Assembly (NCBI GenBank): GCA_030524545.1
Contig: JAUNGM010000032.1
Span: forward strand, 1 to 47,863
Direction: 5' to 3'
Origin: Eubacteriales bacterium
GTDB taxonomy: Bacteria; Bacillota; Clostridia; Lachnospirales; Lachnospiraceae
Length of the DNA: 47,863 nt
The position numbers were made by a program, and so were the translations under genes. Each line of letters opens with the position of its first letter. The first letter of the stretch is position 1. The notes beneath the pieces are model-generated. The model was not told the origin of the DNA. It did not search any database and was given only the letters and a program-made list of their open reading frames with translations. Positions 29,362-39,481 of the stretch are shown here, piece by piece.

Positions 29362-29390
29362 TTGACAAAATTGTATATGCTATTTATAAT
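29362..29390 (+). promoter_or_regulatory. Promoter of the sugar-acid operon
   Basis: A perfect TTGACA (29362-29367), 17-base spacer and TATAAT (29385-29390). It is the only strong promoter I see before the eleven genes that follow. Confidence 0.9.
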
Positions 29391-29399
29391 GAGGACACA

Positions 29400-29414
29400 A
29401 CCTGTACTACAGGT
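29400..29414 (+). promoter_or_regulatory. Operator palindrome of the sugar-acid operon
   Basis: ACCTGTA-C-TACAGGT is a perfect 15-bp palindrome starting about at the transcription start. The GTA-C-TAC core fits the short symmetric sites of GntR/FCD regulators, so the regulator at 36609 in the same operon is the likely binder. Bound there it would repress until the imported substrate or an intermediate releases it. Confidence 0.75.
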
Positions 29415-31984: not shown

Positions 31985-33496
31985 ATGGAACTTGTGTTGG
32001 AAATGCGCAATATTTCGAAGCGTTTTACCGGGGTACAGGCGCTTAAAGAGGTAAATTTAAAGCTATATGCCGGAGAAATACATTCCATTATCGGGCAGAA
32101 TGGAGCAGGAAAATCCACATTAATGAAAATCCTCAGCGGAAATTACAGGCATGATGAGGGAGAGATACTGATCCGTGGGGAAGAGGTGCAGATACATTCA
32201 CCTTCGGATGCAGCAAGGCTTGGAATCGGGATCGTCCACCAGGAACTTAGCCTTCTGAATAATCTGACAGTGGCAGAAAATATATTTCTGGGCAGGGAGG
32301 AAGTAAACGGCATCTGTCTGGACAATAAGAAGATGAACAGAAAAGCACAGCAATATCTTGAGGAAATGGGCATAAGAGGAATTGACGTGAACCAGAATGT
32401 GGAGGCATATCCCCTGGCAAAACAGCAGCTCATAGAAATTGCAAAAGTTCTTTCCGCAAAGCCGGATATTCTGATCCTGGATGAACCAACCGCAGCGTTG
32501 ACAAATGAGGATACGGAAAGGCTGTTTCAGATATTATTCAGACTGAAGAAACAGGGGATTGCAGTGGTATTTATTTCACATCGCCTGGGGGAAATAAAAC
32601 GGTACTGCGATTGCGGAACCATTCTGATGAATGGGCGTGTGACTGCATCCGTGCGTATGGATGAGGTTGATGAAGGGCAGATCATAGAATACATGCTTGG
32701 AGATGCTTTTGATAAATTTCACAGGGAACAGGCTGATATTTCGGTACAAAATAAAAAAGTGCTGGAGCTTCAGGGAATCGGCATAAAAAGAGCTGTGTCG
32801 GACGTGGACTGTACGATTTACGGTGGGACGATCACAGGATTTACAGGGCTACTGGGTGCGGGACAGGATGTTTTATGGAGAGCTGTTTATGGCGATATTC
32901 CGATGGAGAAAGGGAAGATTCTGCTTGGCGGCAGGGAAGTACAGATCCGCAATCCAAATGATGCGGTGCGGGCGGGAATTGGCCTGCTGACGGAGAACAG
33001 AAAAGAAGAAGGAATTTTTCCGCAGATGAGTGTTTTGGATAATATTGCATTGCCTTCCTTGTACCAGGGCAGGATGAGGCTTGGGAAGTTCTTTTTGAAT
33101 TACCGGAAAATACAGAAAGAGGGAGATAAGCTTACAGAATCACTGGCGCTGAAAATGAGGAATTTTCATACAAAGATTAAATTTCTTTCAGGGGGAAACC
33201 AGCAGAAAGCATTGGTTTCCAGATGGCTTATGAGACAGATGGAAATCCTTGTTTTTTTAGAGCCGACAAGAGGCGTTGATGTAGGGGCAAAAGCAGAAAT
33301 ATACAGGATACTTGAGCGTCTGGCCAAAGAGGGGAAAGCAATTGTCGTAGTATCTACAGATACATCAGAGATTCTGCAGGTGTCAGACCGGATCGTTGTG
33401 ATGTGTGACGGCAGGATTTCCAGTATCCTGGAAAAGCCTGCGGACGAAGAATCACTGGCACAGATGATTCAGGGAAGGGAGGTGCGGCATGGGTGA
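31985..33496 (+). CDS. Sugar ABC transporter ATPase, RbsA type (two NBDs)
   Basis: A 503-residue fusion of two nucleotide-binding domains. The first has a good Walker A (GQNGAGKSTLMK), signature region YPLAKQQLIEIAK and Walker B ILILDEPTAALT. The second has the degenerate P-loop usual for RbsA (GLLGAGQDV) and an intact LSGGNQQKALVSRWL. Its Walker B reads ILVFLEPTRGVDVGAK, with leucine (TTA, 33257-33259) where the family has aspartate. ATP hydrolysis at the second site may therefore be weak or absent. GGAGGAA precedes the ATG at 31985. The stop overlaps the next gene by eight bases. Confidence 0.95.
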   Translation: MELVLEMRNISKRFTGVQALKEVNLKLYAGEIHSIIGQNGAGKSTLMKILSGNYRHDEGEILIRGEEVQIHSPSDAARLGIGIVHQELSLLNNLTVAENIFLGREEVNGICLDNKKMNRKAQQYLEEMGIRGIDVNQNVEAYPLAKQQLIEIAKVLSAKPDILILDEPTAALTNEDTERLFQILFRLKKQGIAVVFISHRLGEIKRYCDCGTILMNGRVTASVRMDEVDEGQIIEYMLGDAFDKFHREQADISVQNKKVLELQGIGIKRAVSDVDCTIYGGTITGFTGLLGAGQDVLWRAVYGDIPMEKGKILLGGREVQIRNPNDAVRAGIGLLTENRKEEGIFPQMSVLDNIALPSLYQGRMRLGKFFLNYRKIQKEGDKLTESLALKMRNFHTKIKFLSGGNQQKALVSRWLMRQMEILVFLEPTRGVDVGAKAEIYRILERLAKEGKAIVVVSTDTSEILQVSDRIVVMCDGRISSILEKPADEESLAQMIQGREVRHG

Positions 33497-34477: not shown

Positions 34478-35482
34478 ATGAAGCAGAGATGTGACTGGAA
34501 AAAAATATGGATACCAAAGCTGGATGTGCTTACGATCCTTGGAATGTCTGTTTTGCTGATGATTATATTTGCAGCAAGCAACCCGCGTTTTCTGACGATC
34601 GGCAATTTCTTTAATCTGATACAGCAGAATGCGGCTCTGGCAGTCGTAGCCGTTGGGATGACCTTTGTTGTTATTTCCGGCAATATGGATTTATCTTCCG
34701 GAAGCCTGATCGTGCTGAGCGCATGTACAGCAGGGCTGGTTTTTCAAAAAACAGGAAATATGTTTCTGGGAATTTTGGGAAGCCTTTGTCTTTCTGCAGT
34801 AATCGGAGCATTTAACGGAAGTCTAATCGCATATGGAAAAATAAATGCCGTGATTGTTACTTTGTCCTGTATGATGTGGGCCAGGGGACTGGCTCTGGGC
34901 ATTACCGGGGCATCCTCTATTGCAATTTCTTCCGGAATACTGGATTTTTTGTACCGCCCGTTTCTGTTGGGATTTGTGAATGTATCATTGCTCATTGTGA
35001 TATTGATCATGCTGACCGGTGCATTTTTGCTTGGAAGGACGAAATTCGGCAGATATACAAGGGCTATCGGCGAAAATGAGGCAGCCGCAGCGCTTGCCGG
35101 AATCAATACCAAAAGGATTAAATGGAAGATTTTTATGCTTGCGGCAGTGCTGGCCGGGATTGCAAGTGTTTTGGATCTGGCCCGTTTGGGAAGTGCGGTC
35201 ACAACGATCGGCACAAACATGGAATTGAACGCAATTGTGGCAGTCGTGATCGGCGGGAACAAATTAAGCGGCGGAGAAGGTTCCTTTGCAAAAACCATCA
35301 GCGGACTGCTGTTCATGTTTATTCTTTATAATGGATTAAGTACGCTTGGAATGACAGATGATATTCTGTATCTGCTGAAAGGCGGGATTATTCTGTTTGT
35401 CCTTGCCGTTCAGGTACTGACCGGAAGGTTGAAGATGAAATGGATGAAACAGATGAATTCTTCGGAGAGGAAGGAGGAATAG
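34478..35482 (+). CDS. Sugar ABC transporter permease 2, RbsC type
   Basis: A 334-residue permease paralogous to the preceding one (FVVISGNMDLSSGSLIVL, IGENEAAAALAGINTKRIK, IGGNKLSGGEGSFAKTISG). Two RbsC-type permeases with one double ATPase is a known CUT2 arrangement. AGGAGG-like sequence precedes the ATG, and the oxidoreductase follows after four bases. Confidence 0.94.
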   Translation: MKQRCDWKKIWIPKLDVLTILGMSVLLMIIFAASNPRFLTIGNFFNLIQQNAALAVVAVGMTFVVISGNMDLSSGSLIVLSACTAGLVFQKTGNMFLGILGSLCLSAVIGAFNGSLIAYGKINAVIVTLSCMMWARGLALGITGASSIAISSGILDFLYRPFLLGFVNVSLLIVILIMLTGAFLLGRTKFGRYTRAIGENEAAAALAGINTKRIKWKIFMLAAVLAGIASVLDLARLGSAVTTIGTNMELNAIVAVVIGGNKLSGGEGSFAKTISGLLFMFILYNGLSTLGMTDDILYLLKGGIILFVLAVQVLTGRLKMKWMKQMNSSERKEE

Positions 35483-35486
35483 AAAC

Positions 35487-36572
35487 ATGCTGGAAGATAC
35501 TTATGCGCATAGTCCTTTGAAAAAGATGTTTGATAATAAAGATGTATACGGTATTGCATATGATGAGGAACGATCCCGGAAAAAAGAAATACGCCTGGCG
35601 ATTATCGGATGCGGAGGTGTTGCCCAGAGTAAGCATATACCTGCCATTATGCGCCTGCGGACGATATGGGAACCGGTGACCCTCGCTGCCATATGCATGA
35701 GAAATTCGGTTCAGGGCAAAAAAGTTGCACAAACCTATGGAACAAAGTGGTATGATGATTACAGGAAAATGCTGGAAATGGAAAAGCCGGATGGCGTCCT
35801 GGTGCTTTCTCCCGATTCCCTCCATTATGAACATGCAATGGCATGTCTGGAGAGAGGAATTCATGTTTTGGCAGAGAAGCCTGTTACGGACTCTCTTGCT
35901 AAGGCCGCAGAGCTTGTGGCTTATGCAAAGCAGAAGAAGCTGGTTTTTATGACCGTGTCCAATAAACGTTATTCACCTCCATATTTCCGGGCAAAGAAGT
36001 ATGGAATTCCCAATCCGGCTATGTTTGTGGGTAAGTTTAACCTGGGCTATGACTATGTGGATATCCTGGAAGGGGGAACCGTGCATATTTTTGATCTGGC
36101 CCGGTATTTTATGGGAGATGTCAAGGCACTGACGGCGATTGCAACGAGACATTATTCTTTTAATAAAACAGGCTACCTCTTTGACCATGCGTGCATTAAC
36201 CTGGAATTTTTAAGCGGTGCTATCGGACAGATTTATACATCTTCGTCAGCCCTGAGCCTTAAACCATGGGAACGTGTAGAGATTTACGGGGAGAAACAGT
36301 GGCTGGCTATAGAGGATCAGCATACGTTAAAAATATATGACAGTGAAGAGGGGCCGACAAAAATTTATGAACCAGTATTTCCGAATACACTGATTTTTGA
36401 TGAGGAATTCGGAGGATTTATGGGTCTGATCGAAAATTTCTGCGAATGTATCAGAGGAAATGCGGAACCGTTAGTAACAGGCTGGGACGGTATGAAGGCA
36501 TACGAGCTGGTATTGGCGGTACATCGATCGATCCAGGAAAAAAGAAGAGTTGAACTTCCGCTCATCGAGTAA
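35487..36572 (+). CDS. Gfo/Idh/MocA-family oxidoreductase of the sugar-acid operon
   Basis: A 361-residue NAD(P)-dependent dehydrogenase. After a 36-residue leader the Rossmann motif is RLAIIGCGGVAQSKHIPAI, the catalytic-lysine motif is LAEKPVTDS, and the C-terminal domain has GGTVHIFDLARYFMG. It may oxidise a sugar to its lactone or reduce a keto-sugar acid. AAGGAGG precedes the ATG. It is only distantly similar to the protein at 362. Confidence 0.92.
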   Translation: MLEDTYAHSPLKKMFDNKDVYGIAYDEERSRKKEIRLAIIGCGGVAQSKHIPAIMRLRTIWEPVTLAAICMRNSVQGKKVAQTYGTKWYDDYRKMLEMEKPDGVLVLSPDSLHYEHAMACLERGIHVLAEKPVTDSLAKAAELVAYAKQKKLVFMTVSNKRYSPPYFRAKKYGIPNPAMFVGKFNLGYDYVDILEGGTVHIFDLARYFMGDVKALTAIATRHYSFNKTGYLFDHACINLEFLSGAIGQIYTSSSALSLKPWERVEIYGEKQWLAIEDQHTLKIYDSEEGPTKIYEPVFPNTLIFDEEFGGFMGLIENFCECIRGNAEPLVTGWDGMKAYELVLAVHRSIQEKRRVELPLIE

Positions 36573-36608
36573 ATTTACAAAATAAGCGAAAGAAAGGTGG
36601 ACATAAAA

Positions 36609-37319
36609 ATGACCATGTATAAACCAATTTCCAAAAGTAATCTTTCTTCACAGATTGCAGAATGTATTGAGAACCTGATTTTAGATCAAAAACTAAAAGT
36701 AGGGGATAAACTGCCGAGCGAGATGGAGCTGGCTGAACAGTTCCATACAAGCAGGAACATTGTCAGAGAAGCAATTTCCATGCTGAAAGAGAGAGGGCTT
36801 GTAGAAGTTCGTAATGGAAGTGGTGCCTATGTGGTACGTCCGGAACCAAGCACATTGGGAAGCGTTATGAAAAGGCTGGTGACCGTAGGGGCAACAGATG
36901 CTTATGAAATTTATGAGATCCGAATGGCATTGGAGGTTCGTGCCTGTGGAATGGCGGCAGTGAATGCAGAGGCCGGAGAAGTGGAAATTCTGAAGCAGCT
37001 CATTGCCAAAATGGAACAGAATTACAGTGATAATATTATGTGGTCAAAGTATGATTATCAATTTCATGAAAAGCTGGCAGAAATGACACATTCTACTTTA
37101 TTCCCGGTTTTTTTGAGACCGCTTATCAGTATGGTATATGATCTTTCCGATCAACAGCCAAGAACGACAAAGGCAAGAAAAAATGGAATTGAACAGCATA
37201 AAAAAATCGTGGAAGCAGTTGAAAAAGGTGACAGACAGGAAGCAGAGGGGGCGATGGAACGGCACCTGCAGATTTTCCTGGACGATCTCCTAAAAGAGAA
37301 GGAGGAGGGATTAACTTGA
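36609..37319 (+). CDS. GntR-family regulator, FadR/FCD subgroup
   Basis: A 236-residue regulator. The winged helix spans roughly residues 10-75 (MELAEQFHTSRNIVREAISM, then GSGAYVV). The FCD ligand domain follows, with EIYEIRMALEV and the metal histidines in YDYQFHEKLA and near HKKIVEAVEKGD. It should bind the palindrome at 29400 and respond to a sugar-acid intermediate. The ATG at 36609 has AAAGGTGG upstream; a GTG at 36597 is inside that site. It overlaps the dehydratase start by four bases. Confidence 0.93.
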   Translation: MTMYKPISKSNLSSQIAECIENLILDQKLKVGDKLPSEMELAEQFHTSRNIVREAISMLKERGLVEVRNGSGAYVVRPEPSTLGSVMKRLVTVGATDAYEIYEIRMALEVRACGMAAVNAEAGEVEILKQLIAKMEQNYSDNIMWSKYDYQFHEKLAEMTHSTLFPVFLRPLISMVYDLSDQQPRTTKARKNGIEQHKKIVEAVEKGDRQEAEGAMERHLQIFLDDLLKEKEEGLT

Positions 37320-38446
37320 AAATTACGGATATCAGGCCGTATATTGTAACAGCCCATAATGACAACTGGGTTTACATAAAAGTAGAAACAGATGAGGGGG
37401 TCACTGGTGTAGGGGAGTGCTCCCTGGAAACCAGGGAACAGACCGTAAGAGCAGCAGTTTTGGAACTGAAGCGCTATATGCTGGGGAAAGATCCCATGGA
37501 ATCCGAAAAATTGTTTTATATGCTCTTTCGGGATGAATATTGGGGGGCAGGTCCGGTATTGGTCAGTGCGTTAAGTGCTGTTGATATGGCCCTGTGGGAC
37601 ATTAAAGGAAAATGCCTGAATGTGCCGGTATATCAGCTCTTGGGAGGGAAATTCCGGGATCGGATCCGAGTCTATGCAAACAGATGGTTCCTGGGCGGAG
37701 AGACGCCGGATCAACTGGCATTTTTGGCTGAGAAGACCGTAAAAAAGGGATACACTGCAATGAAATGGGATCCGTTTTACAAAGCGGAGCATACCATTAC
37801 AGCCCGGGAGCTGAAAGGGGTAACAGAACAGATGAAAGCCATCCGGAAGGCAGTGGGTGACGAGGTTGACCTTTTGGTTGAAGGACATGGAAGGTTTGAT
37901 CCGTACACGGCGAAGATCATCGCCCGGGAGCTGCTTCCTTACAAACCATATTTCTTTGAAGAGCCGGTATGGCAGGAGAATCTGGATGCCCTTGCGGAAG
38001 TCAGAAAATCCACATCTGTCCCAATCGCATCAGGCGAGCGATGGTGTACAAAATATGATTTCAGGGCAGCGATTTCGGCTGGGGCAATTGATATTGCGCA
38101 GCCTGATCTGAGGGTGTGCGGAGGTCTTACGGAGGGCAAGAAAATTGCGACTCTGTGTGAGGCAAACCATATTCCTGTTGCACCCCATAATATCCATGGA
38201 CAAGTGGGGACAGCAGCTTCCATGCACCTGGCCTGCAGCATTCCAAATGCGCTGATTCTGGAATATAGTGTAGAAGAAATTGAGTGGAAAGAGGATTTGT
38301 TTGACTACCAGTATAAGCCGATTGACGGCTATATGTATATCAATGACAGGCCGGGCCTTGGGATTGACTTTTATGAGGACGTAGCTCTGAGATATCCGTT
38401 CAGAGATATTTCTATGGTTCAGACCTTGTATTCCTCCGCATTTTAA
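37316..38446 (+). CDS. Enolase-superfamily sugar-acid dehydratase (galactonate dehydratase-like)
   Basis: A 376-residue member of the mandelate racemase/galactonate dehydratase group. Metal ligands appear to be glutamates in LLVEGHGRF, FFEEPVW and IASGERW. The first position is usually aspartate in DgoD (DFHGR). The adjacent histidine of EGHGRF and the PHNIHG histidine are likely acid/base residues. It removes water from an aldonate to give a 2-keto-3-deoxy acid. The TTG start overlaps the preceding stop (TTGA) and has GGAGGG upstream. Exact aldonate unknown. Confidence 0.9.
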   Translation: MKITDIRPYIVTAHNDNWVYIKVETDEGVTGVGECSLETREQTVRAAVLELKRYMLGKDPMESEKLFYMLFRDEYWGAGPVLVSALSAVDMALWDIKGKCLNVPVYQLLGGKFRDRIRVYANRWFLGGETPDQLAFLAEKTVKKGYTAMKWDPFYKAEHTITARELKGVTEQMKAIRKAVGDEVDLLVEGHGRFDPYTAKIIARELLPYKPYFFEEPVWQENLDALAEVRKSTSVPIASGERWCTKYDFRAAISAGAIDIAQPDLRVCGGLTEGKKIATLCEANHIPVAPHNIHGQVGTAASMHLACSIPNALILEYSVEEIEWKEDLFDYQYKPIDGYMYINDRPGLGIDFYEDVALRYPFRDISMVQTLYSSAF

Positions 38447-38461
38447 AGGTAGGTGGCACAG

Positions 38462-39481
38462 ATGAAATTTATTACAATGGGCGAAATTATGCTGCGTTTG
38501 ATGACACCTGGCTTTTTGAGAATTGAACAGACGGATTCTTTCCGGGCTGTTTATGACGGTGATGAAGCAATCGTGGCCGTTTCTCTGGCCCGGTTTGGAA
38601 TGGACTCCTGTTATATCAGCAAGCTGCCGTACGGGCCTTTGGGGGAGGCATGTCTGAAGCGCCTGAGAGCAGAGAATGTGGACTGTCGGTATATAGTGCG
38701 GGAAGAGGGCAGGCTGGGAATTAATTTTTATGAAACGGGAGCATCTGTAAGACCGCCTAGAGTCTTATACGACCGGCAAAACTCTGTTTTTTCAAAAGCA
38801 AAACCGGAGGATTTTCCCTTTGAGGAGATTTTTGAAAAAGGCGACTGGTTCCATTTCACCGGGATTACGCCTGCAATCTCGAAGGAAACAGAAATACTGA
38901 CGGAATATGCGTTGAAAATGGCAAAGAAAAAGGGGGTTACGGTAAGCTGTGACTTAAACTACAGGGCCAAGCTGTGGTCTGCCGAAAAAGCACAGGAAGT
39001 CATGAAGGAACTGATGCCTTATGTAGATGTTTGCATTGCCAATTCAGAAGATGCCAGGATTATGCTGGGAATGGAGCCTGAAAGCATTGATATGAAAAAT
39101 AATCATTTGGATATGGACGGGTACCGTGAATTGTTTCCGTTAATGAGAGAAAAATATGGATTCCGGTATATCGGCTGTACTCTCAGGGAAGGATATTCCG
39201 CTTCTGATAACGGTTTGTCTGTCCTTGGATATGATGGCAGGAATTTCCACAGATCAAAGCATTACGACCTGCATCTTGTTGACCGGGGCGGCGGCGGGGC
39301 CTCCTTTGCCGCCGGGTTTATTTACGGGCTGGCCGCAGGTATGCCGTTGACGGAAACTGTGGAGTTTGCCGGGGCCGCCTCTGCGATCAAGCATACTGTT
39401 TACGGAGGCCTGAATCTGACAGACCCGGGAGAAGTCCGGGAACTGATGGAGGGAACCTCTGCCGGGAGGGTGCAGAGATAA
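38462..39481 (+). CDS. PfkB-family KDG kinase-like protein with altered active site
   Basis: A 339-residue protein with full PfkB architecture, KDG-kinase branch (VRPPRVLYDRQNS, DWFHFTGITPAIS, CDLNYRAKLW). Three expected active-site residues are replaced, each one base from the usual codon. YGGxEAN, the substrate-binding start, reads YDGDEAI (D32 and I37). The catalytic-base motif GGGD reads GGGGA, with A280 (GCC, 39299-39301) in place of aspartate. The frame is intact and under normal codon use, so it is not an obvious pseudogene, but ordinary phosphoryl transfer seems unlikely. The ATG at 38462 follows AAAGGTAGGTGG; its stop overlaps the next start by one base. Confidence 0.88.
   Translation: MKFITMGEIMLRLMTPGFLRIEQTDSFRAVYDGDEAIVAVSLARFGMDSCYISKLPYGPLGEACLKRLRAENVDCRYIVREEGRLGINFYETGASVRPPRVLYDRQNSVFSKAKPEDFPFEEIFEKGDWFHFTGITPAISKETEILTEYALKMAKKKGVTVSCDLNYRAKLWSAEKAQEVMKELMPYVDVCIANSEDARIMLGMEPESIDMKNNHLDMDGYRELFPLMREKYGFRYIGCTLREGYSASDNGLSVLGYDGRNFHRSKHYDLHLVDRGGGGASFAAGFIYGLAAGMPLTETVEFAGAASAIKHTVYGGLNLTDPGEVRELMEGTSAGRVQR

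Follow-up and report, generated by a model that had tools for sequence, protein, structure and literature searches.

A maintained KDG-kinase-like protein with a rewired pocket in a Lachnospiraceae sugar-acid operon: a candidate pseudokinase

Introduction

Does a gene that looks like a KDG kinase, and stands last in a ten-gene sugar-acid operon, still encode an enzyme that phosphorylates KDG? The question is raised by a 47,863-nucleotide stretch of a Lachnospiraceae genome (contig JAUNGM010000032.1 of assembly GCA_030524545.1; hereafter the window). Routine annotation would read the gene as a sugar kinase and the operon as a standard KDG/KDPG route. A preliminary description of the window had noted three substituted active-site residues and had suggested that the kinase step was lost or bypassed, or that the protein had become a pseudokinase. 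PfkB kinases use the aspartate of the GxGD motif as base, and pathways of the non-phosphorylating Entner-Doudoroff type consist of a dehydratase followed by an aldolase that acts on the unphosphorylated 2-keto-3-deoxy acid. Here we examine the residues of the kinase-like protein, its relatives and its operon partners.

Results

Fold of the kinase-like protein

The gene lies on the forward strand at 38462..39481, exactly where it had been placed before, and encodes 339 residues. The ORF has PfkB Pfam matches in two stretches, the best of which covers residues 23-209, and the closest solved relative by sequence is the KDG kinase of Thermotoga maritima (2afb), matched over the whole length (phmmer, 6.2e-97). 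An AlphaFold model of the protein (pLDDT 92.3, pTM 0.92) superposes on 2afb with TM scores of 0.93/0.97 and an rmsd of 1.2. Because a confident model superposes on the solved enzyme in this way, the KDG-kinase (PfkB/ribokinase) fold looks intact over the whole length of the protein, as the preliminary description had claimed.

Replaced residues

Residues 31-37 of the protein read YDGDEAI and residues 273-281 read VDRGGGGAS. These and all other positions were compared with 64 canonical homologues, one of them from the window's own genome, having at least 44% identity and at least 330 aligned columns; rows below either limit were excluded from the counts, as were the second gene copies L007, L008, L009, L069 and L071. 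The tree and the alignment were also made without L109, which is the gene of genome G463 again. The set includes a few identical pairs, and 70 of the 72 tree rows differ. Seven conserved residues turned out to be replaced in the window protein: G32D (Gly in 61/64 canonical homologues), G34D (Gly in 62/64), N37I (Asn in 64/64), Y88N (Tyr in 63/64), and V276G, D280A and D316G (Val, Asp and Asp, each in 64/64). Position 280 holds the aspartate of the GxGD motif (D258 in the Sulfolobus enzyme SsKDGK), which we take to be the catalytic base. The codons gac (D32), atc (I37) and gcc (A280) are each one base off the usual codon, as had been reported; all three substitutions described earlier are real, but three was an undercount.

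The same seven replacements occur in a 65% identical protein of two genomes from another genus of the same family, G433 and G463. In 98 tblastn alignments, some genes being counted twice, position 280 is Asp in 89, Ala in six and uncovered in three, and the six alanines are the genes of the window, G433 and G463, each counted twice. Thus, A280 is found in all three members of this clade. Among the 64 homologues 84 positions are invariant, and at five of these all three clade members share one replacement (N37I, S99P, V276G, D280A and D316G). The homologues L121-L123, at 54.6-55.9% identity, have the canonical residue at each of the eleven sites that were checked.

A paper on a Flavobacterium KDG kinase (PMC5334617) lists G34, Y90, Y106, R108, R166, D258 and D294 as the substrate-recognition residues of SsKDGK. 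By our own mapping, which uses motif and spacing, these correspond to G33, N88, Y103, R105, R168, A280 and G316 of the window protein. The spacing of 36 between D258 and D294 in SsKDGK equals that between positions 280 and 316 here, and in the Flavobacterium enzyme this spacing is one longer. On this mapping four of the seven listed sites are kept (G33, Y103, R105 and R168) and three are lost (Y88, D280 and D316), N88 and G316 being present in 3/3 clade members. The glycine/asparagine turn is altered as well, with new aspartates at two of its positions (D32 and D34). At 126 positions the same residue occurs in 95% or more of the 64 homologues, and fifteen of these positions carry one replacement clade-wide: 3/7 of the listed recognition sites vs 12/119 of the other positions (Fisher p = 0.036, a weak test). 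N194, R242 and D274, which are conserved through the family, are still present.

Judged by its residues, the protein is not a usual KDG kinase, and we infer that its kinase activity has probably been lost. It might instead still be a KDG-type kinase of the ordinary kind whose specificity has shifted, another residue or a water molecule serving as base. The fold that is intact in the model, the four recognition sites that are kept and the conserved position beside the dehydratase gene are consistent with this; however, it is the reading to which we give the least credence, since D280 and D316 are invariant in the canonical homologues and the loop of the partner aldolase is altered as well (see below).

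Relatives and selection

The codons for D32, D34, I37 and G276 differ synonymously among the three genomes and that for A280 is GCC in all of them; this comparison covered these five positions. Between the window and G433/G463 synonymous divergence has reached saturation (pS 0.82). Sequencing error is ruled out in practice, because the residues recur in two further genomes with synonymous differences between the codons. The kinase-like proteins of G433 and G463 are 95% identical, and for this pair the dN/dS of the gene is 0.060, compared with 0.017-0.120 for the other nine operon genes. Purifying selection and the same residues in three genomes also argue against a decaying gene, and the mere loss of the kinase step, one of the options offered earlier, is not what such selection suggests. 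Relatives with the same operon and canonical residues had been named in advance as evidence that would count against a changed function; both operon-bearing relatives have the altered residues.

The main rival to a pseudokinase acting as sensor or partner is a neofunctionalised catalyst, in which the pocket has been rebuilt, D32 or D34 is the new acid/base, and another substrate is used, either in another kinase reaction or in ring opening or anomer exchange of a keto acid. D32 or D34, as a relocated base, could in principle make the protein an active kinase for a different substrate. The seven changes are identical rather than variable across the three genomes, two of them introduce aspartates, the dN/dS is as low as that of the operon's enzymes, and N194, R242 and D274 remain, all of which would suit a working enzyme. 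On the other hand, the base of PfkB kinases is the GxGD aspartate, the turn before this motif is altered too (V276G), and the parts of the open-access literature that were searched yielded no PfkB enzyme with such an arrangement. We regard a new catalytic function as possible but doubtful.

The three proteins form a monophyletic clade (support 100/99, and 100% of 200 bootstrap trees) with a long stem (0.82) and a long tip for the window (0.89 vs a median of 0.083). Long branches meet where the clade joins the KDG kinases, which makes its placement among them uncertain. The comparison draws on two lineages, since only three members were found and two of them are 95% identical. With the kinase as query, the matches listed from overlapping sets of 64, 397, 7, 392, 391, 165 and 179 genomes held no clade members beyond these three; loci were retrieved for part of the matches and the listing was bounded by E-value limits, so that more divergent members could exist. 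Searches with the kinase gave no close relative among plasmids (best 50.7% identity) or phages (best 45.9%) and no relative among viral contigs, and a scan of genome contigs gave one distant relative (L039, 35%).

Other kinases in these genomes

The preliminary description had proposed a search for a second KDG kinase, and the window's genome indeed has a canonical one on contig C6, directly after a KDPG aldolase gene and with all eleven checked residues normal. G433 has three canonical KDG-kinase-like relatives (L104, L106 and L112) and G463 has one (L101), the exception to their canonical residues being Ala or Cys at position 32 in L104, L112 and L101. To judge from these genes, KDG phosphorylation seems to be available elsewhere in the genomes, and the altered copy would therefore be free to change. 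The C6 enzyme could also mean that the kinase step of the operon has been lost and is carried out in trans, the canonical kinase supplying KDPG and the altered copy being on its way out. We consider this very unlikely, as the reading frame is intact in 3/3 genomes, dN/dS is low, the replacement residues are identical, and the operon aldolase lacks the loop that presumably holds the phosphate.

Further PfkB proteins were noticed by inspection. In the window's genome (L006, 942-3194, and L007, 2656-3405) another PfkB protein, of 341 aa and with VGGAELNV and GSGD motifs, is encoded after the canonical KDG kinase, together with a GntR-like gene. A similar second PfkB protein stands beside the kinase in L010, L018, L053 and L068. 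A PfkB subgroup in the genus (L028, L031, L034 and others) has GGGEYNV for GGxEANV and SDR for YDR, with the GGGD aspartate intact.

Operon layout and control region

The kinase-like gene is the last of ten operon genes that keep the same order in 3/3 genomes, which bears out the earlier claim that frame and operon position are preserved. The genes of the window were assigned by Pfam; those of the other genomes, which are 54-77% identical to them, were assigned from ORF lists and by aligning them with the window genes. In the window all lie on the forward strand, at intergenic distances of -8 to 76 bases: a KDPG/KHG-type aldolase (PF01081, 29448..30128), a cyclase or kynurenine-formamidase-like hydrolase (PF04199, 30167..30889), the substrate-binding protein (PF13407, 30886..31911), ATPase (31988..33496) and two permeases (PF02653, 33489..34466 and 34478..35482) of a sugar ABC transporter, a Gfo/Idh/MocA-type dehydrogenase (35487..36572), a GntR/FCD transcriptional regulator (36597..37319), an enolase-superfamily sugar-acid dehydratase (37316..38446) and the kinase-like protein. 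The window's version alone continues with a class II aldolase (PF00596, 39481..40137, forward strand), whose first base is also the last base of the kinase-like gene. The operon had been said to hold two aldolases; both are present in the window, but the operon stretches of G433 and G463 lack the class II enzyme.

By these assignments no canonical kinase lies within the operon. A search of 397 family genomes with the operon aldolase (E <= 1e-45) brought up the operon in no more than two of them, the window's genome (G000) and G433, with G463 evidently being outside that set, and found no canonical kinase in an equivalent operon of another genome. Downstream of the operon in G433, past a MerR-like gene on the opposite strand, an iron-containing alcohol dehydrogenase (PF00465; L069, 12576-13751) was noticed by inspection, and this enzyme could reduce an aldehyde product.

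Upstream of the first gene is a promoter-like site, TTGACA-17-TATAAT, that matches at 12/12 positions (29362..29390, forward strand). As the region holds 22 promoter-like sites, against 19.1 expected, only the perfect score and the recurrence in relatives count; both other genomes have TTGACA-17-TATATT upstream of the operon (L069 and L071). Just downstream of the -10 element lies a perfect 7+1+7 palindrome, ACCTGTACTACAGGT (29400..29414, no strand assigned), and in both other genomes the -10 element is followed by AACCTATTCTACAGGT, in which 14/16 bases are as in the window and the arms are imperfect. The palindrome is an operator candidate to which the operon's GntR regulator may bind.

Aldolase, dehydratase and hydrolase

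The operon aldolase reads AVSGARTFMN after the GG[IV] strand in 3/3 genomes, where 64/64 other assessable aldolases have GxG[SG], GGS or GGT (L013 and L022 being without assessment, and the pattern accepting Thr, as in the GGTW of L051). The replaced GxGS/GGS loop presumably serves Eda for phosphate binding. On this reading, both the operon's kinase relative and its aldolase would have given up handling phosphate; this agrees with an unphosphorylated pathway and lends independent support to the non-phosphorylating branch that had been considered conceivable before. The Eda-family Lys (Schiff base), Glu and Thr are kept in the operon aldolase, with the roles that PMC5334617 lists for the E. coli enzyme. 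A Thr at the Arg49 position was considered as a further sign of change and dropped, because Thr also occurs in Thermotoga-type aldolase designs and in many canonical aldolases.

With 339.2 bits, the dehydratase scores above the curated threshold of 311 bits for galactonate dehydratase. Its sequence includes VEGHGRF in the window and IEGHGRF in the other two genomes, where DFHGR and DMHGR stand in two solved relatives; we assume the Glu of this motif, Asp in the two solved relatives, to be the first metal ligand. The hydrolase keeps its HTGTHLDTAAH motif in all three genomes and is possibly a lactonase.

Discussion

We propose that the gene encodes a maintained, derived KDG kinase paralogue that no longer phosphorylates KDG and serves as a ligand-binding pseudokinase in a non-phosphorylating sugar-acid operon, a reading that we hold with somewhat better than even confidence. 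The kinase fold is kept in the model, the presumed catalytic base is lost and the sequence is under selection, which together are the marks of a pseudokinase. A ligand-binding role, as sensor or partner of the GntR regulator or of the enzymes, appears to us somewhat more probable than a re-purposed catalyst.

The order of the pathway and its non-phosphorylating character are deduced from the gene content. A sugar would be imported by the ABC transporter and oxidised by the Gfo/Idh/MocA-type dehydrogenase, the lactone would probably be opened by the cyclase-type hydrolase, and the acid would be dehydrated by the galactonate-dehydratase-like enzyme to a 2-keto-3-deoxy acid. The latter would be cleaved unphosphorylated, in a retro-aldol reaction, by the KDPG-type aldolase that lacks the phosphate loop. 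The kinase-like protein would bind the keto acid, and perhaps ATP, with no phosphorylation, and act as sensor or partner. A more specific version, in which the PfkB active site has been rebuilt around D32 and D34 and carries out a non-kinase step or senses the keto acid for the GntR regulator, within an Entner-Doudoroff-like pathway that is non-phosphorylating and in which the aldolase changed in parallel, is put forward tentatively, at less than even confidence.

Two operon proteins with altered phosphate-handling parts, kept by selection, point to a sugar-acid pathway that involves no phosphorylation and to a PfkB pseudokinase encoded in a bacterial operon. With one operon, one promoter, one regulator and one dead-looking kinase, the locus makes a compact test system. 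Titles and abstract openings in the open-access literature gave no report of a bacterial PfkB pseudokinase or pseudoenzyme; we make no claim of novelty.

Among known proteins, the closest comparison is the PfkB-type KDG kinase TM0067 of T. maritima (2afb), a whole-length homologue with the same fold as our model, of which G33, Y103, R105 and R168 are kept here and D280, Y88, D316, G32/G34/N37/V276 are replaced. In PMC3409070, yeast Gal3p is described as a galactokinase-like protein without activity, which binds ATP as well as galactose and has a repressor as its target; by analogy, it may serve as a model for the kinase-like protein as a sensor. However, the galactokinase family is, according to the same text, structurally unrelated to the ribokinase family, and an interaction with the regulator is a proposal here. 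FRUCTOKINASE-LIKE 1 and 2 (FLN1 and FLN2) of plants are PfkB-type subunits of the plastid transcription complex, where PMC3409070 calls their role unknown. As PfkB-type proteins that are not catabolic kinases they parallel the role proposed here, but they are plant proteins outside catabolic operons. The operon as a whole would follow the same logic as the non-phosphorylating Entner-Doudoroff type pathways, but it differs in having a KDPG/Eda-type aldolase whose loop is replaced and in retaining a dead-looking copy of the kinase.
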